Assembly: GCF_000224085.1 (NCBI RefSeq)
Contig: NC_015945.1
Span: 2,534,501 to 2,598,500 of the forward strand
Source of the DNA: Allomuricauda ruestringensis DSM 13258
GTDB lineage: Bacteria > Bacteroidota > Bacteroidia > Flavobacteriales > Flavobacteriaceae
DNA length: 64,000 nt
Direction of reading: 5' to 3'
Part shown: piece by piece, positions 5,999-55,139 of the stretch
How positions within the stretch are numbered: the stretch's first letter is position 1
Layout of the letters: each line of letters starts with the position of its first letter
The notes under the pieces: model-generated
What the model was told of the DNA's origin: nothing
Seen by the model: the letters and a program-made list of their open reading frames with translations, nothing else
The model's database searches: none
Position numbers and translations under genes: made by a program

Positions 5999-8900
5999 AT
6001 GAATACTGGTTACCCCAACATTTTTAAAGCCCTTGCCGCTGCTTCTATTTTTATGTTGTCCGTACTTTGTTTTAACAACCTTCATGCACAGATTGATTTT
6101 AATAAAAGCGACTTGAACTTTAATGGAAATGAAAGTGTTTCAGGTGTTACTTCTTTAATGTATGGCCCAGACGGCCGACTGTATGTTTTAGAATATTATT
6201 GGGGAGGTAGTGCTGCTGGAACCATAAAAATACTAACCGTTCAAAGAAATAGTGCCAGTGATTATGTAGTTACGGATGTCGAAACATTAACAAGCGTTTT
6301 GAATATTGTCAATCATAATGATGACGGTACGGTAAACAATTCAGTTAAGCAAAGGGAGGCCACTGGTTTAACAGTTGCCGGTACAGCCGAGACCCCGATA
6401 ATTTATGTTACTTCCAGTGATTTCCGGATGGGCGCTGGGTATTCTGGGGGTGATATTAATCTTGACACTAACTCTGGTGTTATAACAAGGTTATCGTGGA
6501 ACGGAAGTTCTTGGGATGTTGTGGACCTTGTCAGAGGGTTGCCAAGATCTGAAGAAAACCATGCCACTAACGGTTTGGAGTTTATAACTATTAATGGAAC
6601 AGAATACCTTATTGTTGCGCAAGGTGGACATACCAATGCAGGTGCTCCTTCCAATAACTTCACTTTTATCTGCGAGTTTGCCTTGTCGGGAGCAGTTTTA
6701 GCTGTTGATCTCGATATGCTCAATGATATGCCAATAAAAATCGATAGCAATGGAAGACAATACATTTATGATTTGCCGACTATGGATGACCCCACACGCT
6801 CCAATATGAATGGAATAACCGATCCAGATGCTCCCGGATACAACGGAATTGATATTAATGACCCTTTTGGTGGTAATGACGGATTAAACATGGCAATCGT
6901 AGAAGTGGGAGGTCCTGTTCAGATAATGTCGCCAGGGTTTCGTAACCCCTACGATTTGGTCGTTACCGAGAGCAAAGCACTTTACGTTTCCGACAATGGT
7001 GCAAACGGAGATTGGGGGGGATTGCCCATTAACGAAGGAGGAGGTTCGGTAATCAATGATTATGACTCTTCGGAACCTGGGAGTACCACATTCGTAGATG
7101 GTGAAAAAGTTGATAATGATGATCATTTACAGTTAGTGACCATCAATTTAGATACTTATACTTTTGGTAGTTATTATTCCGGTCACCCAAATCCTATAAG
7201 GGCAAACCCCAATGGTGCCGGTCTTTTTACGGCACCGGAACAGTTTGGGACTACAGGGGCGGTATTTAGAACCCAAAAATACGATCCCGATGGTTCAACC
7301 CCTGGGTCTACTACTAATCCAAATATAGCACTGCCGGCCAACTGGCCTCCAGTTTCAACCGCCAACAGCATTGAGGGGGATTGGAGAGGCCCTGGGACAG
7401 CAAATCCTGATGGTCCCGACGACAATAACATTACCACATGGGATGTAAATACCAATGGATTGGATGAATATACAGCATCCAATTTCAATGGCGCCATGAA
7501 AGGCAATTTACTGGCCGGGGATAATCACGGGGTCATCAAAAGGGTAGAATTGAATCCTGATGGGTCCTTGTTGCAGCTTACAGAGCCATTTCTTACAGGT
7601 ATTGGGGGAGATGCTTTGGGAATTACATGTAATAGTGATACAGATTATTTTCCAGGTACCATTTGGGCGGGAACACTTAATGGCAACATTGTTGTTTTTG
7701 AACCCCAAGATTATGGTACTACCTGCATTACCATGGGTTCTCCAGAATTCGATGCTTCTGCTGACTACGATAATGATGGTTATACAAATCAGGATGAAAT
7801 AGACAATGGAACCGATTATTGCGATGTATTGTCCAAGCCCCAAGACTTTGATGCATCTGTGGGTGGAAACTTGGTTTCGGATTTAAACGACGACGACGAT
7901 GACGCTGACGGTATTTCCGATGCAAATGATCCATTTCAACTGGGAAATCCCAATTCTTCAGGAAGTGATGCATTTGTATTTCCTGTTTACAATGATTTTT
8001 ATAATACCCAAGGTTTAGGTGGTATCTCCAACCTAGGCTTAACAGGTTTGATGAACAACGGAGATAATGGTCCAAATTGGTTGGACTGGATAGATAAAAC
8101 TGATGCGGGCCCCAATCCAAATGATATACTGGACGGGAACACGGGTACTTTGGTACTGCAAATGAATGAAGGAACCGCATTCGGAACGACCAATACCCAG
8201 GAAAAAGGATATCAATATGGGATTCAGGTAAATCAAAGTAGTACAATTTTTTCGGTAGTGGGAAAAATGATCGATTTAAATTCTTCTTTGGGCATCTACG
8301 GAAATACCAGTGCTATCGGTGGTGAAATTGGCTTTTTTATTGGCGATGGTACCCAAAGCAATTATATTAAAATGGTACTCAAGAGCGATGGGATAACAAT
8401 ATTGCAGGAAGTCGATGATGTACCTGAAGCTCCTATCAACATCCCTATAGCTGTGGAGGACAGACCTAATGCTGATATCAACTTTTATTTTGTTATCGAC
8501 CCTTCCAGTGGACAAGTAGATCTTGAGTTTGTGGTTGATGGGGGCAACAGGACTCTAGCGACCACTCTAACTGCCAAAGGAAATATCCTTAATGCATTAC
8601 AAAATTCCAATATGGACTTGGCTGTTGGTTTAATCGGAACATCCAACACACCTGGGGTGGAACTGGAGGGCACATGGGATTTTCTCAATGTATATGAAGA
8701 GGGGGGAGGGTATTCCTTGAGAATTAATGCAGGCGGACCACAGCTCGTATATGACGGAAAATTATTTTCTGCAGATCAATTTTATAATAGCGGGTCGGAA
8801 TATAGTAATTCGAGTGCTCAAGTAGACGAACTTTATCAGACCGAACGATTTGCCAGCCTTAATGCCTTTAATTACAACATATCGTTGGAAAATGGTGAAT

Positions 8901-10789
8901 ACACCGTAATTCTTCATTTTGCCGAAATATACTTTGGTGCTACAGGGGGAGATTCTAACGGAGGTATTGGAGATAGAATTTTCAATGTTGAAATAGAGAA
9001 TGCGTTGGTTTTAGATCACTATGATATTGCGGCAGATGTAGGGTCGGAAATATCTGTTGCCAAACCTTTCGACATTACCGTTGCCGATGGTGAGTTGAAT
9101 TTGGATTTTCTGGTGCCAGCGGCTGGAGGTGCCAACAAGCCCAAAATTTCCGCAATCGAAATTCTTGGGAGCGCCAGCGTAAACAATCCACCCGTGGCCG
9201 TGGCCAGTGCATCTCCCGAAACAGGAAACATTCCTTTGGAAGTTAATTTTATCGGGAGCAATTCCATCGATGATAAACAAGTGGTAGGCTATTTATGGAA
9301 TTTCCAAGATGGAACACCGTTATCTTCCCAGGCAAATCCTACCCATACTTTTACGGAAGAGGGAATATATGCCGTTGAATTGACTGTTGAGGACGAAGAG
9401 GAACTTTTCGATACAACTATAGTGACCATTGAGGTTGTTGACCCACCGAACGAAGCTCCGATTGCAGTTGCAGATGCATCTCCCGTCAGTGGGAATGCTC
9501 CCTTGGAAGTTGCTTTTACGGGCAGCAATTCCTCTGATGATAATATTGTCGCTTATTCTTGGAATTTTAAAGATGGTTCCCCTATTTCCACAGCGACCAA
9601 TCCAGTACATACTTTCATAATACCAAACACATATATTGTTGAGTTGACTGTAGAAGATGCAGAAGGGTTAACGGATACATCCACAGTAACCATAGAGGTG
9701 GCCCCACCGACCAATGATCCTCCTACAGCTATAGTTGCCGCTAATCCAGTTCAGGGAGAAGCCCCACTTCTAGTTATTTTTAATGGTAGCGGTTCCAATG
9801 ATGATACTGGAATAATAGCATATCTCTGGGATTTTAAGGATGGGACAACTTCTACAGAGGTTAATCCTAAAAAAACATTTGAAGAACCTGGAACCTACCA
9901 TGTAGTACTACAAGTAATCGATGAAGGAGGTTTAACAGACGTAGATGTGATTGCCATTACAGTAAGTATCCCCTCAAATAATCCACCAGTAGCAGTTGCC
10001 AATGCTTCGGGGAGTATTGGCACAGTTCCATTAAGTGTTTCTTTTACCGGAGAAAATTCAACCGATGATAAAGGCGTGGTGAGTTATTCTTGGAATTTTA
10101 ATGATGGTAGTGAAATATCTCCTCTCCAAAATCCAAGTCACACCTTCGAAGTAGCTGGAACCTATGAGGTTGAATTGACAGTTTCTGATCAAGAAGGATT
10201 AACCGATACTACTTCTTTATTTATTCTTGTAACCCCGAAGCCCAATGAGCCTCCAGTGGCTGTAATTAAATCAATACCCAATCGGGGAGAGGTTCCCTTG
10301 GAAGTTAGTTTTGATGGGACCGGTTCAAACGATGATAAGGAAATAGTAAGGTATCTATGGGATTTTAAGGATGCAAATGTCCAATCAACAGAGGTCGTTA
10401 CCTCACATACTTTTACCGAGGTTGGAAGCTATGATGTGACCCTTACCGTATTTGATGATGAAAACCTAAACAATACAAAATCCATTTCAATTGTTGTAGT
10501 GGAAGAAACTGCCTCAGATGAAATAACCGGAAGAATAATAGTCAACCCGGCAAAGGATATGGCTAGAATTCAAATCGTGGACCATAGCGACTCAAACCGC
10601 TCCGTGGTTCGGATTTATTTGCACGATTCAAGCGGTAAGATGTTAGGTTTATATGACCCTGCTGAAATATTTGCCCATGGTATATATGAGATCCCCATTT
10701 TAACCTTAAGCGAGGGGGGTGCCTATTTTATTGGTTTTGAAATGGACAACAACGAGAAACTGGTGTTAAAGTTGATTGTTAAGAAATAG
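5999..10789 (+). CDS. Giant secreted protein A: beta-propeller / TSP3 / LamG-like / malectin / 5x PKD / T9SS-type tail
   Basis: 1,596 residues from the ATG at 5999; an in-frame TTG six bases earlier is less likely. Order of parts: signal peptide (1-31, ending LHA-Q); a propeller (about 32-572) with sorbosone/PQQ-glucose-dehydrogenase-like features such as GPDGRLYV and GLPRSEENHATNG; acidic calcium-type TSP3 repeats (587-647, DYDNDGYTNQDE); a jelly-roll/LamG-like region (655-897); a malectin-like sugar-binding domain (904-1057, RINAGGP); five PKD domains (1061-1501); and a C-terminal sorting-like domain (1506-1596). Export by Sec then T9SS is inferred. The first 900 residues are closely paralogous to proteins B and C in this window. 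A has no Kelch domain. Whether the propeller binds PQQ cannot be decided by eye. The cytochrome gene follows 15 bases later. Confidence 0.85.
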   Translation: MNTGYPNIFKALAAASIFMLSVLCFNNLHAQIDFNKSDLNFNGNESVSGVTSLMYGPDGRLYVLEYYWGGSAAGTIKILTVQRNSASDYVVTDVETLTSVLNIVNHNDDGTVNNSVKQREATGLTVAGTAETPIIYVTSSDFRMGAGYSGGDINLDTNSGVITRLSWNGSSWDVVDLVRGLPRSEENHATNGLEFITINGTEYLIVAQGGHTNAGAPSNNFTFICEFALSGAVLAVDLDMLNDMPIKIDSNGRQYIYDLPTMDDPTRSNMNGITDPDAPGYNGIDINDPFGGNDGLNMAIVEVGGPVQIMSPGFRNPYDLVVTESKALYVSDNGANGDWGGLPINEGGGSVINDYDSSEPGSTTFVDGEKVDNDDHLQLVTINLDTYTFGSYYSGHPNPIRANPNGAGLFTAPEQFGTTGAVFRTQKYDPDGSTPGSTTNPNIALPANWPPVSTANSIEGDWRGPGTANPDGPDDNNITTWDVNTNGLDEYTASNFNGAMKGNLLAGDNHGVIKRVELNPDGSLLQLTEPFLTGIGGDALGITCNSDTDYFPGTIWAGTLNGNIVVFEPQDYGTTCITMGSPEFDASADYDNDGYTNQDEIDNGTDYCDVLSKPQDFDASVGGNLVSDLNDDDDDADGISDANDPFQLGNPNSSGSDAFVFPVYNDFYNTQGLGGISNLGLTGLMNNGDNGPNWLDWIDKTDAGPNPNDILDGNTGTLVLQMNEGTAFGTTNTQEKGYQYGIQVNQSSTIFSVVGKMIDLNSSLGIYGNTSAIGGEIGFFIGDGTQSNYIKMVLKSDGITILQEVDDVPEAPINIPIAVEDRPNADINFYFVIDPSSGQVDLEFVVDGGNRTLATTLTAKGNILNALQNSNMDLAVGLIGTSNTPGVELEGTWDFLNVYEEGGGYSLRINAGGPQLVYDGKLFSADQFYNSGSEYSNSSAQVDELYQTERFASLNAFNYNISLENGEYTVILHFAEIYFGATGGDSNGGIGDRIFNVEIENALVLDHYDIAADVGSEISVAKPFDITVADGELNLDFLVPAAGGANKPKISAIEILGSASVNNPPVAVASASPETGNIPLEVNFIGSNSIDDKQVVGYLWNFQDGTPLSSQANPTHTFTEEGIYAVELTVEDEEELFDTTIVTIEVVDPPNEAPIAVADASPVSGNAPLEVAFTGSNSSDDNIVAYSWNFKDGSPISTATNPVHTFIIPNTYIVELTVEDAEGLTDTSTVTIEVAPPTNDPPTAIVAANPVQGEAPLLVIFNGSGSNDDTGIIAYLWDFKDGTTSTEVNPKKTFEEPGTYHVVLQVIDEGGLTDVDVIAITVSIPSNNPPVAVANASGSIGTVPLSVSFTGENSTDDKGVVSYSWNFNDGSEISPLQNPSHTFEVAGTYEVELTVSDQEGLTDTTSLFILVTPKPNEPPVAVIKSIPNRGEVPLEVSFDGTGSNDDKEIVRYLWDFKDANVQSTEVVTSHTFTEVGSYDVTLTVFDDENLNNTKSISIVVVEETASDEITGRIIVNPAKDMARIQIVDHSDSNRSVVRIYLHDSSGKMLGLYDPAEIFAHGIYEIPILTLSEGGAYFIGFEMDNNEKLVLKLIVKK

Positions 10790-10804: not shown

Positions 10805-12481
10805 ATGAAGAAGGATAGTTTTAGTACACAATTTTGCTTGACGCGTGTTCTGCAAGTAAACAAAAAGTTTCAAATAGGGATATGTGTTTTGTTTGTGGCT
10901 TTTATAGGATGTACAGACGACCGATTGCCTGAAACCACTGGTTTTGATGTAGATTCTGATGGCGATGGCATTTGGGACGAAGAAGAAATCCAAAACGGTA
11001 CCGATAAGAACAACCCTTGTGACCCCATTCAGGATTTTGATTATACCGTCTATGATGAGCTGAATTTGATTTGGTCCAATAGTGATTGCGATAATGATGG
11101 TATTAGTAATGCCGAGGAACTTGTAAGTGAAACAAATCCTTATATGGATGAGACCCTTGATTCTGACGGAGATGGTATACCGGATTTTGAAGAGTTGAAG
11201 AACGGGACAGATCGATATAGTGCATGTGATCCGTTTCAAAATGCCGAATATTCGGGATACTTGGCGGAAAATGCAATATGGTCCTCCTCGGATTGTGATC
11301 ATGATGGGATTTCCAATGGTAAAGAATTAGCCAATAGTACCAATCCTTATTTAGATGAGATCGGAGGAATCGATACCGACGGAGATGGGATCAAGGACGA
11401 GAGGGAGGTATTGGATGGCACCAATTTAAACGATCCTTGTGACCCTATTCATAGTGATGGTTATACCGGGTACGACTCGGATAACGAAATATGGGTTAAT
11501 AGCGACTGCGATGATGATGGGATAAACAACGGGGATGAATTGTCGCAGGCCACAGACCCTTATTTGGACAATAGGGTTTATGCGGTACCGGAATTTCTCT
11601 CTACTTTATCCGGATTACAGATTTTTCAAGGACCCCTTTCAAATTTGGAACCGGTTGAAACCTCTTACGAGTATAACTTAAGTACAACTGTTTTTACCGA
11701 TTACTCTTATCAGCTCAGAACCATTTCCGTACCAAAATCGAAACAAATGGTATATAATGGTTCAGGATTACTTCAGTTTCCCGATAACACCGTCCTTTCC
11801 ATGACATTCTTTTACCCAAATGATGAACGGAATCCATCGCTTGGAAAGAAAATAATAGAAACAAGAGTACTCATCAAAACCAATGGAATTTGGAGCGCAG
11901 GTAATTACATTTGGAACAATGCACAAACCGAAGCTTATCTTGATGAAGGAACACATACCGTTCCAGTGGCTTGGGTAGATAAACAGGGTAACAATAGAAC
12001 CGTTAATTACAAGGTTCCCCCGACCAACCTGTGTATTCAATGCCATGGCAACAATAGTGTACTTCGCCCCATTGGAATTAAGACAAGGGCTTTGAATTTT
12101 GAACATAATGGCATAAATCAAATAGCGTATTTTGTGGGCGAAGGACTTCTTTATGGAGCCCCAGATATCTCTCAAATTGAAGTTTTACCGGATTGGACCG
12201 ACACATCAATATTTTTAGAGGATAGGGCCAGGGCCTATCTGGATGTGAACTGTGCACATTGCCATCAACCTGGTGGTTCGTATACCGTTAATTATGGCGG
12301 AGAATTTGATTTTAGTTACGAGACTTCGTTTCAAAACAGTAAAATCAATGACGTGAAAACGGCCATCATTACGCGTATGAACACCCAAATACCTGGTTAT
12401 TTTATGCCTCTATTGGGCACAACGGTGATTCATACAGAAGGTGTAGAACTTATAGAAGCCTATATAGATACCCTTGATTGA
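10805..12481 (+). CDS. Surface lipoprotein with calcium repeats and a SO2930-type di-heme cytochrome c domain
   Basis: 558 residues. The signal ends in a lipobox with Cys36 (AFIGC) followed by TDD, an acidic tail resembling the Bacteroidota surface-lipoprotein export signal. Residues about 48-255 hold three TSP3-like calcium repeat pairs (DSDGDGI..., SDCDNDGISNAEEL). The C-terminal half resembles the SO2930 family of di-heme cytochromes, with haem motifs CIQCH (410-414) and CAHCH (483-487). It lies 15 bases after giant gene A, with related calcium repeats, so the two are probably co-transcribed. A role as electron acceptor for a surface oxidation reaction is an inference from this pairing. 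Confidence 0.85.
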   Translation: MKKDSFSTQFCLTRVLQVNKKFQIGICVLFVAFIGCTDDRLPETTGFDVDSDGDGIWDEEEIQNGTDKNNPCDPIQDFDYTVYDELNLIWSNSDCDNDGISNAEELVSETNPYMDETLDSDGDGIPDFEELKNGTDRYSACDPFQNAEYSGYLAENAIWSSSDCDHDGISNGKELANSTNPYLDEIGGIDTDGDGIKDEREVLDGTNLNDPCDPIHSDGYTGYDSDNEIWVNSDCDDDGINNGDELSQATDPYLDNRVYAVPEFLSTLSGLQIFQGPLSNLEPVETSYEYNLSTTVFTDYSYQLRTISVPKSKQMVYNGSGLLQFPDNTVLSMTFFYPNDERNPSLGKKIIETRVLIKTNGIWSAGNYIWNNAQTEAYLDEGTHTVPVAWVDKQGNNRTVNYKVPPTNLCIQCHGNNSVLRPIGIKTRALNFEHNGINQIAYFVGEGLLYGAPDISQIEVLPDWTDTSIFLEDRARAYLDVNCAHCHQPGGSYTVNYGGEFDFSYETSFQNSKINDVKTAIITRMNTQIPGYFMPLLGTTVIHTEGVELIEAYIDTLD

Positions 12482-13197: not shown

Positions 13198-14067
13198 TTA
13201 TAGCCGATAGGCTCTGGTAATATTGAATCCAAAAAGAATGTCTCCATTAAAAAAATTATTTTGGTTGAACATAGTATCCTGTTGCGGCACAATTCCACTG
13301 TAATTGCCTATAAATATTTGAAATGCATGACCGGCGGTTGAGAACTCGACACCAATGGCAAGTCCTGGTTCAGGGTCGGTATTGAACTCTACACTATTCA
13401 AATGATGGGTAAACGGCAGGTTGGCATCAATTAAAATAGAAGTTTGCAGGCTTATTTTATACCTGCCACCAATTCCAACTGCAATTTTATCATTCCTGTT
13501 TTTTATATCCACCAAGTTATAATGCGAAACACTTGGGGCCAACTGAAGTGATAAGTTTGGACCAAACCGTTTAGTGATTATGAGCTGATTAAAAAATGAA
13601 AATCTATCTTGATCGCTGGTAAAATTTTCCTTGGGCCTGGCGTCAACAGTAAAATTTCCATAATAAGAAACACTTACGGGTATACTATTGGATCGGGTTT
13701 GTTTAAAAATGCCGGCTTTAAGACTAAAATCTTGCAGACGGTTAAATCTTGTTGTTCCAAAGCCAATGGTAAATCTATCGCTCACTGCAAATGTGGCACC
13801 CAGTCTAATGTTTGATGGGGCCCAAATACCGAACAAATCATTTCCCCCGGTATTGATAAGCCCAAAACGGTGCTTAATTTGAATCTCCAATGTTTTTTTG
13901 GGGAAAAGAACATTCGAGGGGTTGTTGATAATAAATGAGCTTTCAAATGCTGAACGTGCTGGTCTTTCGGCAAGGGAATCCCTTTTTGTGATTTGGGAGA
14001 TGATCGATTGTGACATAAAAAGCACAAACAACGGGACCATACTATATTTTAAACTTATTGTTCCCAT
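13198..14067 (-). CDS. DUF5777-type outer membrane beta-barrel protein
   Basis: 289 residues from the ATG at 14067; a longer reading from 14100 would run into the upstream gene. A signal peptide (about 1-25) is followed by a region with FPKKTLEIQIKHRFGLINTGG and GIWAPSNIRLGATFAVSDR, then regular amphipathic strands to the end, which fits the DUF5777 beta-barrel family. It starts two bases after the stop codon of the upstream haem lipoprotein. Barrels of this family are often found beside cytochrome c genes in Bacteroidota. A porin-like or electron-conduit role is possible but unproven. Confidence 0.8.
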   Translation of the reverse strand: MGTISLKYSMVPLFVLFMSQSIISQITKRDSLAERPARSAFESSFIINNPSNVLFPKKTLEIQIKHRFGLINTGGNDLFGIWAPSNIRLGATFAVSDRFTIGFGTTRFNRLQDFSLKAGIFKQTRSNSIPVSVSYYGNFTVDARPKENFTSDQDRFSFFNQLIITKRFGPNLSLQLAPSVSHYNLVDIKNRNDKIAVGIGGRYKISLQTSILIDANLPFTHHLNSVEFNTDPEPGLAIGVEFSTAGHAFQIFIGNYSGIVPQQDTMFNQNNFFNGDILFGFNITRAYRL

Positions 14068-14069
14068 AT

Positions 14070-14453
14070 TTAATTGTTTAATGCTCCTTGCTCTATCCAA
14101 TTTTTAATTAATGTTATCTGGGAATCCGGCAGACTTCCAGTTGGTGGCATAACACTGGGGTTGCCAATAAGCCTTTGGTATAGTAAACTTCCGTCCAGGT
14201 CGTTGGCAATAATATAATTTTCGTTTATGAGGGTTGGATAAGAGTTTCCTTCACTCAAATCGGGATTTGGAACCAGGGCAGGATGGCAAACGGTACAGTT
14301 TGCATCAAATATAGGCTGGACATCTGCTGCAAATGAGACTTCTGTTTTAGAGAGCACTTCTTCCTCAGGGTGGTCGTAATAACAACTTTGAAAAGAAATG
14401 AATAGCAGAAGGACCGTTAACCTTTGAATGGGACTTCTATATTTTTTTATCAT
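14070..14453 (-). CDS. Cytochrome c-like lipoprotein
   Basis: 127 residues. ATG at 14453, with an in-frame TTG one codon earlier. A lipoprotein signal ends at Cys24 (FQSC), followed by YYDHPEEE, again acidic. A single haem-binding CTVCH (53-57) sits in the pattern DVQPIFDANCTVCH, common in small c-type cytochromes and planctomycete-type cytochrome C domains. A late MPPTG gives a candidate Met ligand. First gene of the minus-strand operon with the barrel and the mono-haem cytochrome. Probably an envelope electron carrier; direction of electron flow is unknown. Confidence 0.8.
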   Translation of the reverse strand: MIKKYRSPIQRLTVLLLFISFQSCYYDHPEEEVLSKTEVSFAADVQPIFDANCTVCHPALVPNPDLSEGNSYPTLINENYIIANDLDGSLLYQRLIGNPSVMPPTGSLPDSQITLIKNWIEQGALNN

Positions 14454-14649: not shown

Positions 14650-15801
14650 TTAACTTAGTAGAATGTTTTTATAGGCCTCCAATATAGGTTCTCGCCTAAA
14701 ATCTTGAATACGTTGTAAAAGCTTGGGCTTACATGCCTTCAAAAATTCGGGATGTTGCAACACATAATCCAAGGCCTTTTGCATGCAGGCTACATTGTTT
14801 ACCGGAGTTAGAATACCGTAGTCGGTAAACATTATATCATCGGTTTTGGCCTGTTTCAGCTCCATCATTTCGTCGGGACCCGATTTGCAATTGGTACTCA
14901 CAATGGGCAAGCCACAACACATGGCTTCCATAAGCACGTTGGGGAATCCTTCGTTTAAAGAACCGAACAAAAAGAAATCGGCAGCCTTTAAATATTGGAA
15001 CGGATTGCTTTCAAAGCCCATCAAAAACACTTGTTCTTCCAAGCCAAGGTGTTTGATCTTGGACTCCAGTTGCAATCTAAGTTCACCTTCGCCAAAAATG
15101 TAGAGGCGTAGGTTTTTGAAAGGGACTACGGCCTCCAACAAAAAACCGTGGTTTTTTTCAGGAACCAATCGGCCTATACTAACGGTGTTGACATAATTTG
15201 CATCGAAAAAACCTTCCAATTTTTCAATTTTGTTGATTTTGTCAATATCGATGGGGTTGTATATGGTTTGGGTCCGTTCTTTGGAAACACCAAAATTATC
15301 GACCAAATCCTGGGCACTGGCCTTGGCATTGCTTACTACCAAATCTGCTTTACGGTATAGGCGTTTCACCAAAAAATTATTGATCCGTGCTTGAAGGTCG
15401 TTCCCGCCGTATTGCATGCTCGGAAAGTTGCGCTCACTGATCATGAGCTTGTAGGGATGTCCAGTGAACCACCGCGCCATAATATTCACATAGCAGGGGC
15501 GTGTTAAAAGGCTGAAGGAATGGGTAATGTTTTCCCTTTTTAAAAAACGGGCATATTTATACGCCAACCAAGGCAGTTTCAATAATTTTAGAATACCGGA
15601 TTCGTTTTTTTGTGATTTGGCCAAATAATGAATGGGAACTTCTTCGGGAACAGGGTAAGCCAGTTCTTCCTCGGTTAGTACCAAAACCACGGAGAGCCCT
15701 TTTTTTACCAAATAGGGGAGCAGGTAGGAAGTTACGCGTTCGGCACCGCCACCGGCCAAGGAGTTGATGAAGATTGCTATTTTTTTTGGAGATTTTTCCA
15801 T
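14650..15801 (-). CDS. GT4 glycosyltransferase (EPS)
   Basis: 383 residues with the GT-B fold of family GT4. The N-terminal acceptor side starts INSLAGGGAERVTSYL. The donor side has SIGRLVPEKNHGFLLEA and the E-x7-E motif in NEGFPNVLMEAMCCGLPIV. It transfers a sugar from a nucleotide donor to the growing lipid-linked repeat unit at the cytoplasmic face; the sugar is not predictable. Last gene of the minus-strand EPS block, behind the ATP-grasp gene. The GGGAERV start is shared with the genes at 18043 and 21817, so these three are paralogues. Confidence 0.88.
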   Translation of the reverse strand: MEKSPKKIAIFINSLAGGGAERVTSYLLPYLVKKGLSVVLVLTEEELAYPVPEEVPIHYLAKSQKNESGILKLLKLPWLAYKYARFLKRENITHSFSLLTRPCYVNIMARWFTGHPYKLMISERNFPSMQYGGNDLQARINNFLVKRLYRKADLVVSNAKASAQDLVDNFGVSKERTQTIYNPIDIDKINKIEKLEGFFDANYVNTVSIGRLVPEKNHGFLLEAVVPFKNLRLYIFGEGELRLQLESKIKHLGLEEQVFLMGFESNPFQYLKAADFFLFGSLNEGFPNVLMEAMCCGLPIVSTNCKSGPDEMMELKQAKTDDIMFTDYGILTPVNNVACMQKALDYVLQHPEFLKACKPKLLQRIQDFRREPILEAYKNILLS

Positions 15802-15878
15802 TCAGAATTTTAGGGGTAGTACCGAACTATTTTACCTATTAGGTGAAAATTATTTTTTTATTTCTATAAACTTTAATT

Positions 15879-16949: not shown

Positions 16950-17049
16950 GGATATGATTTAAGTGAAAATTGAAATGTTATTAGGGTTGGTTACAAATAA
17001 AATGAGGGTTTACGAAATATAATAGTTTATAAGGTACTTTCTATTCTAA

Positions 17050-17979: not shown

Positions 17980-18042
17980 AAACCTTGGTTTTAGCTGGTT
18001 GGTATAATGTGTGCCGAATGGGTTGATAGGTTACTTCTTATT

Positions 18043-19161: not shown

Positions 19162-19256
19162 GTGTTAGTTGAGGTATATGTTTTTAACGGACTTATCACT
19201 ATTGTATTATTGATTTTATGTTTTTCTTGTTTAGGAAAGCTGTCTAATAGGTGTTA

Positions 19257-20618: not shown

Positions 20619-20626
20619 TTACCCCA

Positions 20627-22887: not shown

Positions 22888-22889
22888 CT

Positions 22890-23837: not shown

Positions 23838-23882
23838 TCCTAAATTTTAATGGAAAAGTATAAATGAATGGATTGACCGCAC

Positions 23883-23909
23883 AAAAAAAGCTGTTCAAAG
23901 GAACAGCTT
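23883..23909 (-). terminator. Rho-independent terminator of the pectate-lyase-like gene
   Basis: On the minus strand a nine-base-pair stem (AAGCTGTTC / GAACAGCTT, 23901-23909 with 23888-23896) with a four-base loop runs straight into seven T residues. It lies 55 bases after the lyase stop codon. It should separate lyase transcription from the downstream EPS genes, which then need their own promoter. Confidence 0.85.
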
Positions 23910-23963
23910 AATCGATAATGAACATATTTCTTTTTTGAATGAAGAAATAGCTAATTAAATTTT

Positions 23964-25712: not shown

Positions 25713-25762
25713 TTAGAATAAAGAGGTTAAGTGGTTAAAAACTATATTTCCGACTTGGGAAA

Positions 25763-25770
25763 CAAATCTA
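25763..25770 (-). promoter_or_regulatory. Candidate -7 box for the pectate-lyase-like gene
   Basis: On the minus strand TAGATTTG matches TAnnTTTG exactly, 51 bases before the start codon at 25712. No TTG is seen at the ideal -33 distance. The repeated TCGATGAAA motifs lie just upstream. Confidence 0.35.
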
Positions 25771-25809
25771 ATTTAATTGTATGTTTTATCGACGTAAAAC
25801 TATTTTTTT

Positions 25810-26404: not shown

Positions 26405-26416
26405 TAAACCCCTGCC

Positions 26417-44913: not shown

Positions 44914-46284
44914 TTATACGCCCCTCGAAAACAAAATGGTCGAAAGCGTCTTAAAAATGATGCGTAAATCAAGAACTACGGATTTATTCTTAATGTAATA
45001 AAGGTCGTACTCCAATTTTCTAATGGAGTCCTCCAGATTTTCACCATATTTATATTTAACCTGTGCCCAACCGGAGATGCCTGGTTTTACAAGGTGTCTT
45101 ACGTTATAAAAAGGAGTGACCTTGTTTAATTTGTCCACAAACACTTTTCTTTCGGGTCTGGGCCCAATAAAAGACATGTCCCCACGGATAATGGACCAGA
45201 CCTGTGGCAGTTCGTCCACCCTAAATTTTCGCAAAACCTTTCCAAATTTGGTAACCCTAGCATCGTTTTTGGTGGCCATTTTAGCCCCTTTTTTCTCCGC
45301 ATCGACAACCATGGACCTAAACTTAAAAACTTTGTATTCCTTTCCATGTTTGCCCACCCTCAATTGGGTGTAAAAGAGTGGTCCGGGATTGAAAAAAATA
45401 TTCAATAGAAATACAAATGGTATGGAAAGTAAGAAAGCGATTCCCGAAACCAAGGTTAGGAAGAAATTGAACGCAAAGTTGGCAATGCCCTGTAAATAAT
45501 GAATTTTATTATTGCTCAATTGCAGAATTTCGTAAAGGCTATCATTGTGGGAATCTATGGGAAGTGCCTCATAGGTACTTTCATAGAACGAAGTATAGGT
45601 GAGTACTTCTTTTCCCGACAACAATGAATTTACCAGCATATTTTCCATTTGTTTGGAAAAATGGTTGTAACTCCTTGTATTGATAATGCACGAATCTATA
45701 CTTTTTTCAATAAGCTTGTTTTCACTGATGGGATCGCTGTCCTCGGAATTTAAATAAGTGGAAACAACTTTATAGTAGGTTTCGTTATCATCTCCGTTGA
45801 TATAGTCAAGGTTTTTTTCCAAACTATCCTTGGTCGTTTCATCGTAGATGTAGAGGACCCGTTTGGTCGTAGGGACAAATTTGAAAATATAATTGAAGAG
45901 CAAACGCCATAACGATAACTGGATAGGGCAGAAAATTATGAATACCAATAAATATAATTGCCAATACGCAAAAGCAAAGAAAAATGTGGTAACCCCCACT
46001 ATGGAAATAGTGAACAAAAAAGTGATGGTGAATATCCTTATAATGGAATAGGTGATGGATTTGGGAACCTTCTCCAGGTTGTAAGTTTCAAAAATATATG
46101 CCAAAACAAAGTAAATGGCCACCCCAATGGCAACAATCGTTATTTGATAAAAAAGGGGGTCTTCATTCTGGTAATCAACGGCCCTTAAAACAAAGTTTCT
46201 TAGAGAGATCCCGATCAATGTCAAATCACCTAAAAACAGAATAGATTTTCTTTCTAAGGTATTCAGTAGAGGTTTTGTACTCAT
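44914..46284 (-). CDS. WcaJ-like polyprenyl glycosylphosphotransferase (EPS priming)
   Basis: 456 residues. About four N-terminal membrane helices and a CoA-binding_3-like middle region (about 135-240) precede a fifth helix (about 268-292). The bacterial sugar transferase domain follows with GPLFYTQLRVGKHGKEYKVF, FKFRSM, DELPQVWSIIRGDMSFIGPR and KPGISGWAQV. It transfers a sugar-1-phosphate (usually glucose or galactose) to undecaprenyl phosphate, the first step of EPS assembly. It stands apart from the other EPS enzymes, between giant genes B and C, and diverges from the FlaA1-type membrane gene. Confidence 0.92.
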   Translation of the reverse strand: MSTKPLLNTLERKSILFLGDLTLIGISLRNFVLRAVDYQNEDPLFYQITIVAIGVAIYFVLAYIFETYNLEKVPKSITYSIIRIFTITFLFTISIVGVTTFFFAFAYWQLYLLVFIIFCPIQLSLWRLLFNYIFKFVPTTKRVLYIYDETTKDSLEKNLDYINGDDNETYYKVVSTYLNSEDSDPISENKLIEKSIDSCIINTRSYNHFSKQMENMLVNSLLSGKEVLTYTSFYESTYEALPIDSHNDSLYEILQLSNNKIHYLQGIANFAFNFFLTLVSGIAFLLSIPFVFLLNIFFNPGPLFYTQLRVGKHGKEYKVFKFRSMVVDAEKKGAKMATKNDARVTKFGKVLRKFRVDELPQVWSIIRGDMSFIGPRPERKVFVDKLNKVTPFYNVRHLVKPGISGWAQVKYKYGENLEDSIRKLEYDLYYIKNKSVVLDLRIIFKTLSTILFSRGV

Positions 46285-47840: not shown

Positions 47841-50800
47841 ATGAAAGAACACTACTCCACAGTGCAGAGGTGCGCGGGCTGCCTTTGTATCCTTTTCCTT
47901 ATTTTTTATAGTTCCTCGATTTCAGCTCAAGTAAGTTTTTCCCAAACATTGCTAAAGTACAATGGCAATGAGGATTTGAGTGGTGGGGTTACGGGTATGA
48001 TGTACGGTCCCGATAATCGATTGTATGTTACCTCCCTCAAGGGAATGGTAAACATATTTACCATAGAACGGAACTTGACAAACGATTATGAAGTGCTTGA
48101 TGTGGAGGTTTTGGATGATATCCAAGGTATCGTTAACCATGATGATGATGGATCGCCCTGTAATGGAAGTTATTCCCAATGCCATACACGCGAGACCATA
48201 GGAATCGTATTGAGCGGTTCGGCCGAGAACCCGGTTTTCTATGTCTCCTCTAGCGATGTTAGAATAGGCGCAGGTTCCGGGGGCGGTAACGGTGATGTAG
48301 GTCTGGACACCAATTCAGGGGTCATTACCAGGTTCAGCTGGACAGGGAGTTCATGGGACGTGGTGGATATTGTACGTGGTTTGCCAAGATCTGAAGAAAA
48401 CCATGCTACAAATGGTTTGGATTTGGTAACGATAGGAGGTAAGGAATATTTATTGGTGACCCAAGGAGGACATACCAATGGGGGTGGCCCCTCGGTTAAT
48501 TTTGTATTTTCCACAGAATACGCACTTGCAGCCGCTATTTTGGCCATTGATCTTGATGCTATCAACAGTATGCCCGTACAATTGGACAATGGACGCCAAT
48601 ATATTTACGACCTGCCAACGCTTGATGATCCTACACGTGCCAATGTCAATGGTATAACCGATCCAGATTTACCCGGTTACGATGGCGTGGACATCAATGA
48701 TCCCTGGGGAGGTAACGATGGCCTGAACCAGGCAAAAGTGATACCCAACGGTCCCGTTCAAATTCTATCACCGGGTTACAGGAATGCCTATGATTTGGTA
48801 GTCACCAAGTCGGGCGCACTTTATGTGACCGACAATGGTGCCAACGGCGGTTGGGGCGGTTTTCCCGTAAACGAAGGAACTGCCAATGTCAACAACGACT
48901 ATGACCCAAACGAGCCCGGAAGCCAATCCTATTCCGGCGGTGAGCACATAAACAATAAGGATCATCTACAATTGGTGACAACAGATTTGTCCACCTATAC
49001 ATTCTGGGAATATTATGGTGGCCATCCCAACCCTGTGCGAGCAAATCCTGCGGGTGCTGGTCTGTATACTGCTCCAGGCGATGGAAACGTAGGAGCTGTT
49101 TTTAGAACCCAGATATTTGATCCAAGTTCTCCAGGCGCCGGATACACAAGTGACCCCAGTATCGCACTCCCTGTAGATTGGCCACCTGTTCCCGTGGAAT
49201 TGGCCAACGTGGTGGAAGGAGACTGGCGTGGTCCGGACGAGGACAATCCCGATGGACCATTAGATGGTGAAATTGCCGTATGGAGCACCAACACAAATGG
49301 AATCGCCGAATACAGGGCCTCCAATTTCAATGGGGCCATGCAAGGAGATTTGCTCGCAACGGCAAGCAGCGGAAATATAAGAAGGGTACAGTTGACCTCC
49401 GATGGGCAATTGGAAAGTTTGAACCAAAGCTTTTTGTCGGGAACAAAAGGCTATGTTTTGGCCATTGCAACTACCGACGATGATGAAATTTTTCCCGGAA
49501 CCATTTGGACAGGCGATCTAAGCGGTAACATTCAGGTGTTTGAACCCTTGGATTTTGTGGAATGTATATTGCCTGGAAATCCCGGGTATGACCCATTGGC
49601 CGACAATGATTTTGACGGCTATACCAATCAGGATGAAATCGATAACGGTACCGATATCTGTAACGGGGGATCACAACCTTCGGACTTCGATAGTCTGCAA
49701 GGGGGTACATTGGTTTCCGATTTGAACGACCCCGATGACGATTTTGATGGTATTCCCGATGTGGATGACCCCTTCCAGTTGGGGGACCCTACTACAAACG
49801 GAAGCGATGCCTTTACTTTGCCCGTTGCCAATGATTTCTTTAACTATCAGCAAGGGTTGGGCGGTTATCTTGGTTTGGGGCTCACAGGATTCATGAACAA
49901 TGGAACTGGAAACGGGAATTGGCTCAATTTTACCGATAGGAGGGACGACCCCAACGACCCCAATCCAAACGACGTAATGGGGGGCGCCCCGGGAATAGTA
50001 ACCATGCACATGACGTCAGGAACTGCACTGGGGACTACCAATACCCAAGAAAAGGGGCTACAATATGGTGCCCAAGTCGATGTTTCCGCAGGGGTATTCC
50101 GTGTTACAGGAGGTATGGTTGGACTTACAGGTGAATCGCGTTTGTATGGCAATACGGCAGCAATCAATGGCGAACTCGGATTTTTTATAGGGGACGGAAC
50201 ACAATCCAATTACATCAAATTTGTAGTCAATACCAATGGCCTTTTGGTACAACAGGAAATAAACGATGAGGCCAATTTGCCGATTACCGTATCTATTCCG
50301 GAGCCTAATCGCCCTGAAACCGGAATTTTGTTCCATTTTGTGGTAAACCCTTCAACGGGAGAAGTGACTTTTGAATATCAAATTGATGGTGCGGCCCCTG
50401 TTGAGATAGGTCGTCTTACAGCTGAGGGAAGCATCTTGGAGGCCATTCAAAGCCAAGGAACAGATTTGGCCCTTGGACTTATAGGTACTTCCAATACCGA
50501 AGGAGTTGAGTTGGAGGGTAGCTGGGATTTTTTGAATATTACCGGAAGCTCACCTACCGTGGTGCAAGGCATAGCTGATATGGAACGTATCGTAGGCTCT
50601 TCCGATGAAACCATTGATTTGGATACCGTTTTTGATGATAATCTAGGCGTGGAAAATTTAAGCTACTCTGTTGAGAATAACACCAATCCCAACATTGGTG
50701 CAATCATATCAGACAATATGTTGACCATAACCTTACCAGCAACACCTGCGGAAAGCACAATCACCATAAGGGCGACTGATAGTGAGTCATTGTTTGTAGA

Positions 50801-53800
50801 AATGTCCTTTGCGGTAAGTGTAATCGAGGACAATATTATACTATACCGTATCAATGCGGGTGGTCCAGAAATAGCTTCTATTGACAATGATCTGGTCTGG
50901 AGTGCGGATCAGTCAAGCAATAATTCTCCATTTTTGGTAGAGCCGGGAACCAATACCACCTATGCAGGAACCATAACTAACTTGGACCCAAGTATTGATA
51001 CCAATACCACACCTTTGGGCATATTCGATACCGAACGTTTCGATGAAGCGAGCGGTGCCCCAAACATGATCTACTCCTTTCCCGTTTCCAAAAACGGCAA
51101 TTATGAGATACACCTTTACATGGGCAATGGCTACTCGGGTACATCGCAACCCGGTGAACGCATTTTTGATGCACTTATAGAAGGAATTGACTTGCCTCTT
51201 TTAACGGATATTGATCTTTCGGAAAAATTCGGACATGCATCGGGTGGTGTGATAAGTCATATCGTCAAAGTATCCGACGGGGCAATCGATATCGAATTTT
51301 TGCACGGAGCTATCCAAAACCCTTTGGTCAATGGTATTGAGATTTTGGATGTTTCCGATAGTAGCACACCCATTTACGTATTTGATATCACAAATCAAAT
51401 CAGCAGCCCCGGCGAACAGCTCAATGGAAGCTTGATCGTTGATGCCAATGGAGGTGATGGCAATCTGACCTACGCGGCCGAAGGGCTCCCACCAGGGCTC
51501 TTTATTGAACCAACCAATGGTCAAATAGGGGGAACCATCGAGGCAAATGCGGCGGGGGGAAGTCCCTATACCGTTATTATAACCGTTGACGATAGTGATG
51601 GGACAACGGAGGATACAACAATGGTCAGTTTTCAATGGACCATTGATGGCGATTACTTCTGGACGGACAAGAATGAAAATCTAAATTATACGGCCAGACA
51701 CGAAAATTCCTTTGTGCAAGCCGGGGATAAATTCTACCTCATGGGAGGTCGGGAAAACGCACAGACTATTGATATTTATGATTACGGAACGGATACTTGG
51801 ACTTCATTGTCCAATTCGGCCCCATTTGAGTTCAATCATTTCCAGGCCACAGAATACAAAGGCCTAATTTGGATCATTGGCTCCTTTAAAACAAATGCAT
51901 TTCCCAATGAAATCCCAGCAGAATTTATCTGGATGTTCGACCCAGCTAGCCAAGAATGGATACAGGGACCCGAAATCCCAACCAATAGACGTCGTGGATC
52001 ATCCGGTTTGGTGGTCTATCAAGACAAGTTTTATGTGGTTGCAGGGAATACCGACGGACATGACGGGGGCTATGTGCCTTGGTTTGACGTATACGACCCC
52101 TCAACAGGGACTTGGACTGCCTTAACGGATGCTCCAAGGGCAAGGGACCATTTTTCAGCAGTAATTATTGGTGACAAGTTGTATGTGGCGGGAGGAAGGC
52201 TTTCCGGTGGTGCCGGAGGGGTTTGGGCCCCCACTATCGCGGAGGTCGATGTTTATGATTTTACAACGGGAAGCTGGAGTACTTTGCCCAGCGGACAAAA
52301 TATTCCAACGCCAAGGGGAGGTGCCGCGACGGTCAATTTCAACAATAAGTTAGTAGTTATCGGAGGTGAGGTAGAGGATGAAGAGATATATGGCGTATTG
52401 ACGGATGATGCCCTGAAAATCACGGAAGAGTATGACCCTCTATCAGGTACTTGGAAGCGATTGCCAGATATGAATTACGAGAGGCACGGTACACAGGCCA
52501 TTGTCTCGGGTCCAGGAATCCATATTTTGGCAGGAGCCCCGAACAGGGGGGGCGGCAACCAAAAGAACATGGAGTTTTTGGGCGTGGATGCCCCGGAAGG
52601 AACGGCAAGCCAGGCGAGCACATTACAGTTTCCCGAAAGTGTTGCTTTTGAGGACGACCAAACTCTTGAAATAGACTTGTCCGTGATGGACGGAAACGTG
52701 GGGATGTTTATTAGGTCTATGGAGATTTCGGGTACTAATGCTTCAGATTTCAGTATAGACTCTGGCGAGCTTGTCAATGCCCTTCTTAATCCCGGTCAAA
52801 CCCATACCATAACCGTATCGTTAAATGGTGCCGGAGCAGGTAAAACCGCAACTTTAACTATTGACTATGGTAATTCAAGTGCGGCCAGTATAGCACTTAC
52901 AGGAACCGACGTAGATAGTGAAGGCGTGGTGGGCCTTACCTTGGTGGACGCCTCGACGGACACGGATTTGTTCAACTTGGTGGATGGCCAGCAAATCGAC
53001 CTGGGGCCATCCGGCGGACAGGCCCTCAATATCAGGGCGAACACACTTGGTGGACCGGGCAGCGTGCTTTTCGAACTGATGGGCCCTGTTTCGGCCACCC
53101 AACGTGAGGGCGTGGCCCCTTACGCGTTGTTCGGTGACCTATCGGGCAATTACAACGGGAGGGACCTTCCGTTGGGGAACTATACCCTTACGGCCACGGC
53201 CTATAACGGCAGTGGTTCGAGCAGCGGTGTCATGGGCCAACCACTGAGCGTGAACTTTTCTTTGGTGACCGGGGCGGATGGGACACCCGTTGCGATGGCA
53301 ACCGCTGATGTGGAGACCGGAGAGGCTCCATTGACCGTAAATTTCACGGGAAGCAATTCCACGGACGATGTAGGCATAATCTCCTACGAGTGGGACTTCG
53401 GGGACGGCAGTGCGCTGTCCAACGAGGCGGACCCTGTCCACACCTATACGGTCGCGGGCAGTTATGATGCGGTACTGACGGTGACCGATGGCGATGGGCA
53501 GACGGACACGGACACCATAACCATAATCGCAAATACGGTGCAGAGCGATTCCCCTATTTCTTTTGCCGAAGCTGACCAAGTAAACGGGGACGCTCCCTTG
53601 GAAATACAGTTTACTGGAAGCAATTCCACGGACGATGTAGGCATAATCTCCTACGAGTGGGACTTCGGGGACGGCAGTTCGCTGTCCAACGAGGCAGACC
53701 CTGTCCACACCTATACGGCAGCGGGCAGTTATGATGCGGTACTGACGGTGACCGATGGCGATGGGCAGACAGATACCGATTTCGTTGCCATAAACGTATC

Positions 53801-55139
53801 AGGACCCATTACCGAGGGCGTGGTGAGCCTAACCTTGGTGGATGCCTCCGCGGATACCGACCTGTTCAACTTGGTGGATGGCCAGCAAATCGACCTGGGG
53901 CCATCCGGCGGACAGGCCCTCAACATTCGTGCGAACACACTCGGTGGACCGGGCAGCGTGCTTTTCGAACTGATGGGCCCTGTTTCGGCCACCCAACGTG
54001 AGGGCGTGGCCCCTTACGCGTTGTTTGGCGACCAATCGGGCAATTACAACGAGAGAGACCTTCCGTTGGGGAACTACACCCTTACGGCCACAGCCTACAA
54101 TGGGAGCGGTTCGAGCAGCGGTATCATGGGCCAGCCACTGACCGTGAATTTTTCTTTGGTAACCGGTACGGGCGGGTTGCCCGTGGCTATGGCAACCGCC
54201 GATGTGGAGACCGGAGAGGCTCCATTGACCGTAAATTTCACGGGAAGCGATTCCACGGACGATGTAGGCATAATCTCCTACGGGTGGGACTTCGGGGACG
54301 GCAGTGCGCTTTCCAACGAGGCGGACCCCGTCCACACCTATACGGCAGCGGGCAGTTATGATGCCATGCTGACGGTGACCGATGGCGATGGCCAGACGGA
54401 TACGGACACCGTTACCATAAACGTATCAGGGCCCATTACCGAGGGCGTGGTGAGCCTCACCTTGGTAGACGCCTCCTCTGATACAGACCTGTTCGATTTG
54501 GTTGACGGCCAGCAGATCGACCTGGGGCCATCCGGCGGACAGTCCCTCAACATTCGTGCGAACACGCTTGGGGTGGCGGGCAGTGTACTTTTCGAACTGA
54601 CCGGTCCTGTTTCGGCTACGCAACGGGAGGGCGTAGCACCCTACGCATTGTTTGGCGACCTATCGGGCAATTACAACGAGAGAGACCTTCCGTTGGGGAA
54701 CTATACCCTTACGGCCACGGCCTACAATGGCAGTGGTTCGAGCAGCGGTATTATGGGCCAACCCTTGATGATTGATTTTTCCATAGTTTCCGGTTTAACG
54801 GGCAAAGCAAGTTCTTCCAATATGGATAATGCACTCGTGGAATCTGAACCACAATTCAAAGTAGAAAGTAAAGATGTTCCTTTTGAAATCATCATGTTCC
54901 CAAACCCTGGGGCAACAGAGGTCACAATATCGACCAACTCACTTAACTCAGACCTGAAAGGGGTTAGGATATTTGATGCTACCGGACAATTGGTGAGGTC
55001 TTTCAACCCTTCAGAATATAGAGATGGCAGGAATGATTATAAACTACCTGTCAATAGTTTGCAGGCAGGGGTGTATCATCTTGGTATCTTGACTTATGAT
55101 GGCGGGACATATTTCAAACAATTGATCATAAGAAAATAA
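47841..55139 (+). CDS. Giant secreted protein C: propeller / TSP3 / LamG-like / malectin / Kelch / repeated LNIRA-APYALFGD modules with PKD / T9SS tail
   Basis: 2,432 residues from ATG 47841 (a TTG at 47793 gives no better signal). Signal peptide to about 33 (SISA-Q). Propeller (about 34-574), TSP3 (580-647), LamG-like (650-902), Ig-like (904-995), malectin (999-1170), He_PIG (1177-1268), Kelch (1272-1583) and choice-of-anchor-like (1589-1690) all align with protein B. Then come three near-identical modules (1694-1812, 1992-2108, 2200-2317) containing LDLxPSGGQ-like, LNIRANTLG and APYALFGD, alternating with three PKD domains. The tail (2347-2432) is a clear T9SS type A sorting domain (FPNPGATEVTIS, GVYHLGI, KQLIIRK). 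The module region is more GC-rich than its surroundings. Probable secreted matrix/adhesion protein. Confidence 0.88.
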   Translation: MKEHYSTVQRCAGCLCILFLIFYSSSISAQVSFSQTLLKYNGNEDLSGGVTGMMYGPDNRLYVTSLKGMVNIFTIERNLTNDYEVLDVEVLDDIQGIVNHDDDGSPCNGSYSQCHTRETIGIVLSGSAENPVFYVSSSDVRIGAGSGGGNGDVGLDTNSGVITRFSWTGSSWDVVDIVRGLPRSEENHATNGLDLVTIGGKEYLLVTQGGHTNGGGPSVNFVFSTEYALAAAILAIDLDAINSMPVQLDNGRQYIYDLPTLDDPTRANVNGITDPDLPGYDGVDINDPWGGNDGLNQAKVIPNGPVQILSPGYRNAYDLVVTKSGALYVTDNGANGGWGGFPVNEGTANVNNDYDPNEPGSQSYSGGEHINNKDHLQLVTTDLSTYTFWEYYGGHPNPVRANPAGAGLYTAPGDGNVGAVFRTQIFDPSSPGAGYTSDPSIALPVDWPPVPVELANVVEGDWRGPDEDNPDGPLDGEIAVWSTNTNGIAEYRASNFNGAMQGDLLATASSGNIRRVQLTSDGQLESLNQSFLSGTKGYVLAIATTDDDEIFPGTIWTGDLSGNIQVFEPLDFVECILPGNPGYDPLADNDFDGYTNQDEIDNGTDICNGGSQPSDFDSLQGGTLVSDLNDPDDDFDGIPDVDDPFQLGDPTTNGSDAFTLPVANDFFNYQQGLGGYLGLGLTGFMNNGTGNGNWLNFTDRRDDPNDPNPNDVMGGAPGIVTMHMTSGTALGTTNTQEKGLQYGAQVDVSAGVFRVTGGMVGLTGESRLYGNTAAINGELGFFIGDGTQSNYIKFVVNTNGLLVQQEINDEANLPITVSIPEPNRPETGILFHFVVNPSTGEVTFEYQIDGAAPVEIGRLTAEGSILEAIQSQGTDLALGLIGTSNTEGVELEGSWDFLNITGSSPTVVQGIADMERIVGSSDETIDLDTVFDDNLGVENLSYSVENNTNPNIGAIISDNMLTITLPATPAESTITIRATDSESLFVEMSFAVSVIEDNIILYRINAGGPEIASIDNDLVWSADQSSNNSPFLVEPGTNTTYAGTITNLDPSIDTNTTPLGIFDTERFDEASGAPNMIYSFPVSKNGNYEIHLYMGNGYSGTSQPGERIFDALIEGIDLPLLTDIDLSEKFGHASGGVISHIVKVSDGAIDIEFLHGAIQNPLVNGIEILDVSDSSTPIYVFDITNQISSPGEQLNGSLIVDANGGDGNLTYAAEGLPPGLFIEPTNGQIGGTIEANAAGGSPYTVIITVDDSDGTTEDTTMVSFQWTIDGDYFWTDKNENLNYTARHENSFVQAGDKFYLMGGRENAQTIDIYDYGTDTWTSLSNSAPFEFNHFQATEYKGLIWIIGSFKTNAFPNEIPAEFIWMFDPASQEWIQGPEIPTNRRRGSSGLVVYQDKFYVVAGNTDGHDGGYVPWFDVYDPSTGTWTALTDAPRARDHFSAVIIGDKLYVAGGRLSGGAGGVWAPTIAEVDVYDFTTGSWSTLPSGQNIPTPRGGAATVNFNNKLVVIGGEVEDEEIYGVLTDDALKITEEYDPLSGTWKRLPDMNYERHGTQAIVSGPGIHILAGAPNRGGGNQKNMEFLGVDAPEGTASQASTLQFPESVAFEDDQTLEIDLSVMDGNVGMFIRSMEISGTNASDFSIDSGELVNALLNPGQTHTITVSLNGAGAGKTATLTIDYGNSSAASIALTGTDVDSEGVVGLTLVDASTDTDLFNLVDGQQIDLGPSGGQALNIRANTLGGPGSVLFELMGPVSATQREGVAPYALFGDLSGNYNGRDLPLGNYTLTATAYNGSGSSSGVMGQPLSVNFSLVTGADGTPVAMATADVETGEAPLTVNFTGSNSTDDVGIISYEWDFGDGSALSNEADPVHTYTVAGSYDAVLTVTDGDGQTDTDTITIIANTVQSDSPISFAEADQVNGDAPLEIQFTGSNSTDDVGIISYEWDFGDGSSLSNEADPVHTYTAAGSYDAVLTVTDGDGQTDTDFVAINVSGPITEGVVSLTLVDASADTDLFNLVDGQQIDLGPSGGQALNIRANTLGGPGSVLFELMGPVSATQREGVAPYALFGDQSGNYNERDLPLGNYTLTATAYNGSGSSSGIMGQPLTVNFSLVTGTGGLPVAMATADVETGEAPLTVNFTGSDSTDDVGIISYGWDFGDGSALSNEADPVHTYTAAGSYDAMLTVTDGDGQTDTDTVTINVSGPITEGVVSLTLVDASSDTDLFDLVDGQQIDLGPSGGQSLNIRANTLGVAGSVLFELTGPVSATQREGVAPYALFGDLSGNYNERDLPLGNYTLTATAYNGSGSSSGIMGQPLMIDFSIVSGLTGKASSSNMDNALVESEPQFKVESKDVPFEIIMFPNPGATEVTISTNSLNSDLKGVRIFDATGQLVRSFNPSEYRDGRNDYKLPVNSLQAGVYHLGILTYDGGTYFKQLIIRK
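52920..54790 (+). repeat. Internal near-identical DNA repeats in gene C
   Basis: A unit of about 355 bases begins at 52920, 53813 and 54438, and a PKD unit of about 250 bases occurs at about 53284, 53580 and 54187. Long tracts are identical at the DNA level, for example around GACCTGGGGCCATCCGGCGG in all three units. Silent sites are conserved too, so the copies are recent or kept alike by gene conversion. Confidence 0.88.

Follow-up and report, generated by a model that had tools for sequence, protein, structure and literature searches.

Giant multidomain proteins at a flavobacterial exopolysaccharide locus share a putative, divergent sugar-dehydrogenase-type head

Within a 64,000-nucleotide stretch of the Allomuricauda ruestringensis DSM 13258 genome (contig NC_015945.1, positions 2,534,501 to 2,598,500; hereafter the window), three very long genes, designated A, B and C, lie among genes for exopolysaccharide (EPS) synthesis and export and encode proteins that begin with one common head of about 900 residues (Table 1). 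An earlier sequence-only reading of the window had described them as giant secreted paralogues, and this relationship is upheld by the reading frames and the alignments: the start codons at 5999, 35331 and 47841 fall within the listed open reading frames (ORFs) 5993–10789, 35280–44576 and 47793–55139, the heads align end to end with 65% (B) and 59% (C) identity to A (67% and 62% over the propeller part alone), and the segment GLPRSEENHATNG is identical letter for letter in all three. Chance can be excluded as the source of this resemblance, since pairwise BLASTP comparisons (A–B, A–C and B–C) return E = 0 across about 1,270–1,320 residues.

Behind the heads, Pfam agrees with the previously described layout of malectin, Kelch and PKD domains, and the presence of several sugar-binding folds per chain is likewise supported. 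The region first described as LamG-like is predicted to adopt a ConA-type lectin fold, while the proposed TSP3 repeats stand in part: a motif scan detects two calcium-type, TSP3-like motifs in each of the three heads, but none of the three proteins has a Pfam TSP3 match at E ≤ 0.001. The repeated module set of C resolves into three copies of ~120 residues (52917–53279, 53811–54173 and 54438–54800) that are 82–92% identical; across 52917–54800 the modules share 81–90% DNA identity and represent a recent internal duplication that possibly varies between strains. As for the tails, which had been likened to sorting domains of the type IX secretion system (T9SS), Pfam places Por_Secre_tail over its cut-off in C only, and A and B join it through a profile that represents the tails at 20 further loci, with A, B and C left out, which matches all three C-termini (E 6e-22 for C; A and B in Table 1). 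Judged by these profile matches, A, B and C end in one tail family, and the T9SS component searched for in the genome, the translocon protein SprA, is found at 2907 bits.

Table 1. Features of the window and the basis of each assignment
Feature	Position	Strand	Basis
Protein A: head, malectin, 5 PKD, T9SS-like tail	5999..10789	+	ORF, Pfam, tail profile
A head: sugar-dehydrogenase-like propeller (predicted)	6089..7735	+	AF2, Foldseek, VIA
A codon of invariant His, counterpart of sGDH His144 (GLPRSEENH)	6560..6562	+	HMM alignment
A codons of invariant Arg-Asn, counterpart of sGDH Arg228-Asn229	6941..6946	+	HMM alignment
A: two TSP3-type calcium motifs, between propeller and lectin-like domain	7763..7912	+	motif scan
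A: ConA-type (LamG-like) jelly-roll domain	7925..8692	+	predicted fold
A: malectin domain	8714..9157	+	Pfam E 9e-29
A: five PKD domains	9182..10501	+	Pfam; boundaries from reading sequence
A: C-terminal tail, T9SS type	10508..10786	+	leave-out HMM E 5e-21
Gene X: lipoprotein-like signal (by eye), TSP3 repeats, SO2930-like diheme domain	10805..12481	+	15 bp after A
X diheme domain, CXXCH at 12032-12046 and 12251-12265	11603..12478	+	TIGR03806
DUF5777 membrane beta-barrel gene	13198..14100	-	after A-X pair
EPS synthesis: glycosyltransferases, MurJ-like flippase, Wzy-like, TupA-like and other ATP-grasps, beta-helix lyase-like (by eye), epimerase, UDP-glucose dehydrogenase	14650..30280	-	
EPS export: Poly_export (Wza), Wzz/kinase-type (Wzc), Branch glycosyltransferase	30810..34946	+	Pfam
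Protein B: head, 2 malectin, Kelch, insert, 8 PKD, tail	35331..44576	+	ORF, Pfam, tail profile
B head propeller	35421..37064	+	alignment with A
B: ConA-type domain	37239..38027	+	alignment with A
B: first malectin (limits by eye)	38322..38840	+	Pfam finds two stretches
B: best-scoring malectin	39141..39644	+	Pfam
B: Kelch propeller	39945..40811	+	Pfam
B: inserted domain, no Pfam match (limits by eye)	41409..42089	+	Pfam, sequence
B: eight PKD domains	42192..44285	+	Pfam; boundaries from reading sequence
B: C-terminal tail, T9SS type	44289..44573	+	leave-out HMM E 7e-29
Initiating sugar transferase (Bac_transf)	44914..46284	-	Pfam
Protein C: head, malectin, Kelch, 3 PKD, 3 repeat modules, tail	47841..55139	+	ORF, Pfam
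C head propeller	47931..49595	+	alignment with A
C: ConA-type domain	49773..50540	+	alignment with A
C: malectin	50841..51338	+	Pfam
C: Kelch propeller	51657..52508	+	Pfam
C: Por_Secre_tail, above Pfam cut-off	54894..55130	+	Pfam
CpsB/CapC, EPS phosphatase-type gene	55406..56149	-	Pfam

The N-terminal part of the head is modeled by AlphaFold2 (AF2) as a propeller (pLDDT 75, pTM 0.81), and in a Foldseek search with the A model, sugar dehydrogenases dependent on pyrroloquinoline quinone (PQQ) occupy ranks 1 to 13. The closest structures to the predicted fold are thus of the type of soluble glucose dehydrogenase (sGDH), a ranking that rules out the head as a single unknown fold. Furthermore, an alignment of hidden Markov models (HMMs), rather than a three-dimensional superposition, assigns counterparts of sGDH His144, Arg228 and Asn229, corresponding to the catalytic histidine and the quinone-contacting Arg-Asn pair, and these are invariant in 125 of 125 heads examined. 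Altogether six polar positions, the putative catalytic set among them, do not vary across these heads, which span several phyla. Direct sequence links to sugar dehydrogenases are weak: PF07995 (GSDH) matches 11 of 27 head homologues at E ≤ 1 (best 3.1e-6), the homologues P0043 and P0115 carry PF07995 as a precomputed annotation, and the database name of the relative P0041 begins 'PQQ-dependent sugar dehydrog-', while a PDB sequence search with P0115 returned no match. The family is also patchy, the head being detected at E ≤ 1e-20 in 10 of 395 genomes at the class level, source genome counted. From the model and the residue pattern we predict that the head is a divergent relative of the PQQ-dependent sugar dehydrogenases (sGDH/AA12 superfamily). 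A different chemistry on a six-bladed scaffold, such as that of a lactonase or a strictosidine-synthase-like hydrolase, appears very unlikely to us, given that a lactonase emerges only at Foldseek rank 24, that the motifs in the alignment belong to the quinone site and that a cytochrome gene next to A would suit a redox enzyme.

That neighbor, gene X, matches the SO2930-type diheme cytochrome profile TIGR03806 with E 2.5e-68 and 230.6 bits, under the curated cut-off of 313.3, and carries the two CXXCH motifs of a diheme protein at residues 410 and 483. X lies directly behind a head gene in five cases (G000, G034, G488, L028 and L049), and these five heads form one clade with SH-aLRT support of 96 in a quick tree of 39 rows; a more careful tree built without the G-numbered rows groups A with L028 and L049 at 92/95. 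As far as the sequence is visible, X adjoins none of the other 34 tree rows, the next gene lying out of view for L042, L053 and L059, whose ORF runs off the contig, and little sequence following L036. The DUF5777 barrel gene, on the opposite strand, follows the A–X pair in the source genome, G034 and G488, but a different gene comes next in L028. X-type domains are sparse among relatives: TIGR03806 scores above 200 bits in four genomes among 59, and in only G000 and G034 of the 36 genomes of the source genus that were searched. A partner for every head is not borne out, as neither an X domain nor CXXCH occurs in any of the 120 head homologues listed (1,206 found; ~300–970 residues).

A related arrangement within one chain occurs in G423, where an X-type domain stands behind a true GSDH domain together with PA14 and F5/8 or ricin domains. 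A search with the GSDH part of this protein found 1,920 matches, and among the 120 listed, all of which carry PF07995, every one also has an X-type domain; the search used GSDH-part words only, the query derives from a fusion and the length window favors long proteins. Two adjacent genes of one genome (L101:2296–7140 and 7823–11239) each fuse GSDH, SO2930 diheme and carbohydrate-binding domains, and this pair stands for a large class. Because the X-type domain is fused behind GSDH in all 120 of these listed matches and the X-adjacent heads form one clade, A and X together look, at the level of sequence, like a split quinohemoprotein.

We then consider the genomic setting, defining the core EPS markers as Wza, Wzc, the initiating transferase and CpsB. 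At least one marker is present at 29 of 36 head loci in Flavobacteriaceae and at one of nine elsewhere, and at none of 40 random 20-kb control stretches drawn from five head-bearing genomes; a Fisher value for this linkage overstates it, because related species contribute loci that are not independent of one another. The marker-negative loci in the family are L025, L027, L032, L034, L036, L043 and L044; for two of these the contig is shorter than 8 kb. In the first search the head was matched in 12 of 99 genomes, all among the 60 of the source genus. Two of the 12 (G003 and G023) have weak, partial matches only; in nine of the remaining 10 the head lies 3.1–4.5 kb from the genome's sole PF02563 match, and in G005 the two are on different contigs. 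Across nine genomes outside the genus, Wza is near the head in G488 (15 kb) and near one of two heads in G423 (4 kb), and not near it in G466 and G483; no contig carries both head and Wza in G457, G417, G462, G479 and G242, some of these assemblies being fragmented. The linkage in Flavobacteriaceae is therefore real, and the suggested association of the family with EPS loci holds tightly for export genes within these bacteria and is mostly not seen elsewhere. Homologues that lack an EPS link, which the sequence-only reading had named as grounds for refuting its proposal, do in part exist, as most of those examined outside Flavobacteriaceae show none; an EPS link everywhere is not borne out.

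Such linkage could also reflect shared inheritance of one neighborhood, with the proteins acting on outside glycans such as algal polysaccharide, unrelated to the cell's own EPS. The heads away from Wza in other taxa would fit this explanation, as would copies far from it inside the family, namely one in G024 at 136 kb and the A–X pair of G488 at 572 kb, but the gene order Wza-Wzc-(Branch)-head is seen repeatedly, across several genera, many of the loci have CpsB downstream, and the control stretches hold no core marker; we regard shared inheritance alone as unlikely. G024 also contains two almost identical heads ~10 kb apart (L009 and L018), a pair that is a recent duplication or gene conversion.

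We propose, with confidence evenly balanced between acceptance and doubt, that A, B and C are surface sugar dehydrogenases held on polysaccharide by their lectin domains and that A hands electrons to X. The proteins would be exported by the T9SS and exposed on the cell surface, where the head propeller could oxidize a sugar, probably at C1, with the invariant histidine acting as base and the Arg-Asn pair placed at the quinone. Attachment of the enzyme to polysaccharide would come from the ConA-type, malectin and Kelch domains, with the PKD chain as a putative spacer, and A would pass electrons to the co-encoded lipoprotein diheme cytochrome, making the two a divided counterpart of the fused Bacteroidota quinohemoproteins. 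The EPS coat of the cell itself is the likely setting in Flavobacteriaceae and might serve as substrate or anchor. Extending this to a coat whose sugar ends are oxidized by the giant proteins encoded beside Wza and Wzc, with the membrane-anchored diheme partner of A-type heads drawing electrons away from the matrix and a split, lectin-anchored quinohemoprotein editing or sensing EPS on PQQ from neighbors, is a decidedly speculative step that we consider improbable.

Several observations weigh against this proposal, in addition to the distant A–X pair of G488. The AF2 model is middling with weak loops, and pLDDT falls to ~61 in the ten-residue block that holds the invariant histidine. At the sequence level, the A head has no Pfam match at E ≤ 1 and does not reach the PF07995 gathering cut-off, the strictosidine-synthase-like SSL_N profile matches as many of the 27 homologues as GSDH does, and PDB sequence searches with the A head alone and with two profiles found no match. 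Similarly, hhalign gave no useful alignment of the heads with the fused GSDH set (probability 1.8%), and in the HMM alignment the 40 rows of fused GSDH do not outscore shuffles, only sGDH standing out. A PqqC profile had no match in the source genome, where controls were also silent, and exceeded its cut-off in none of 247 Bacteroidia genomes, with two sub-threshold matches only; PQQ synthesis is thus likely absent, and PQQ would therefore be scavenged, or the cofactor differs. A propeller fold of this kind can also serve for binding, as in HHIP. Finally, one of PMC6881789 and PMC6881810 states that the catalytic histidine is absent from over a quarter of AA12 sequences, and activity therefore varies within the superfamily.

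The head may accordingly have kept the fold and lost catalysis, making A, B and C EPS-anchored adhesins or scaffolds whose binding module resembles that of HHIP in animals. HHIP chains are indeed among the Foldseek matches, many lectin-type modules and PKD spacers surround the head, and the EPS linkage and the PqqC result would fit as well. Neither B nor C has a CXXCH motif or, within the window, an adjoining cytochrome, and a purely binding role therefore fits them better than A. Set against this are the six polar positions that remain invariant in heads of several phyla and the co-inheritance of the diheme cytochrome with A-type heads, and we judge loss of catalysis somewhat unlikely, if the strongest of the alternatives. 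An adhesin or matrix role alongside, or in place of, catalysis is possible; the head itself, earlier taken for an unrecognized adhesin or matrix module, is instead predicted to be a divergent PQQ sugar-dehydrogenase relative with the catalytic residues kept and, for A, a paired diheme cytochrome gene. A characterized enzyme function, which that reading had set as a second ground for refutation, exists for the superfamily, and we found no characterized close member.

Further genes of the window deserve mention. A minus-strand gene at 23964–25712, inside the EPS cluster, encodes a lipoprotein-like product with a beta-helix or pectate-lyase-like look by eye and a Pfam match to Big_9 only, and is a candidate EPS lyase. 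One sugar-transfer ATP-grasp and two TupA-like ATP-grasp genes stand among the EPS genes (15879–17979 and 22890–23837, minus strand), and their products might decorate a uronic-acid EPS with amides or peptides. Between the sugar transferase and C, a plus-strand gene (46458–47387) has no Pfam match, and part of its product matches genes that many EPS-linked head loci carry ~2 kb upstream of Wza. At 1–2292 (plus strand), glycoside hydrolase family 3 and beta-lactamase-type domains share one chain.

Should the enzymatic proposal hold, redox chemistry reliant on outside PQQ would be part of the marine flavobacterial extracellular matrix. The picture of unknown giant adhesins gives way to an enzyme hypothesis, open to experiment, for a component that recurs at flavobacterial EPS loci, and X is named as candidate electron acceptor for A. 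The shape predicted for the shared head and the likely electron-accepting partner of A suggest that the three proteins are enzymes of the cell surface equipped with sugar-binding arms and not solely glue. Titles and abstract openings in the literature searched include none on this head family, on a GSDH–TIGR03806 pairing or on heads at EPS loci.

The closest known systems each share part of this arrangement. The sGDH of Acinetobacter calcoaceticus and the aldose sugar dehydrogenases (PF07995, TIGR03606) have in common with the heads the predicted propeller and the counterparts of His144, Arg228 and Asn229, whereas the A head lacks a Pfam match, spans ~550 residues with large inserts and sits within a T9SS-type multi-lectin chain. 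The fungal AA12 quinohemoprotein pyranose dehydrogenase CcPDH (PMC6881789, PMC6881810) is described as having an AA12-type propeller module, to which the head is similar in predicted structure, in a secreted chain with a heme partner; there the cytochrome b domain belongs to the same chain, whereas here the partner is a separate diheme c-type protein, beside A only. Bacteroidota GSDH–SO2930 fusions, several of which are named 'PQQ-dependent sugar dehydrogenase' in their sources (e.g., P0337 and P0360), combine GSDH with the X-type diheme domain, many of those listed together with malectin, PKD, ricin, PA14 or Por_Secre_tail, whereas A and X are split and the head profile does not find the fusions above shuffles. 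X resembles the SO2930 diheme cytochromes over that domain and differs in its sub-cut-off score and N-terminal lipoprotein-like TSP3 stalk. Of the thrombospondin/COMP signature domain the heads have only two motifs, a common arrangement for which no common function is shown. Both the superfamily of the head and the cytochrome domain were known before; new, as far as the literature searched shows, are the divergent head branch with its invariant quinone-site residues, its split from the cytochrome and its place beside Wza and Wzc.
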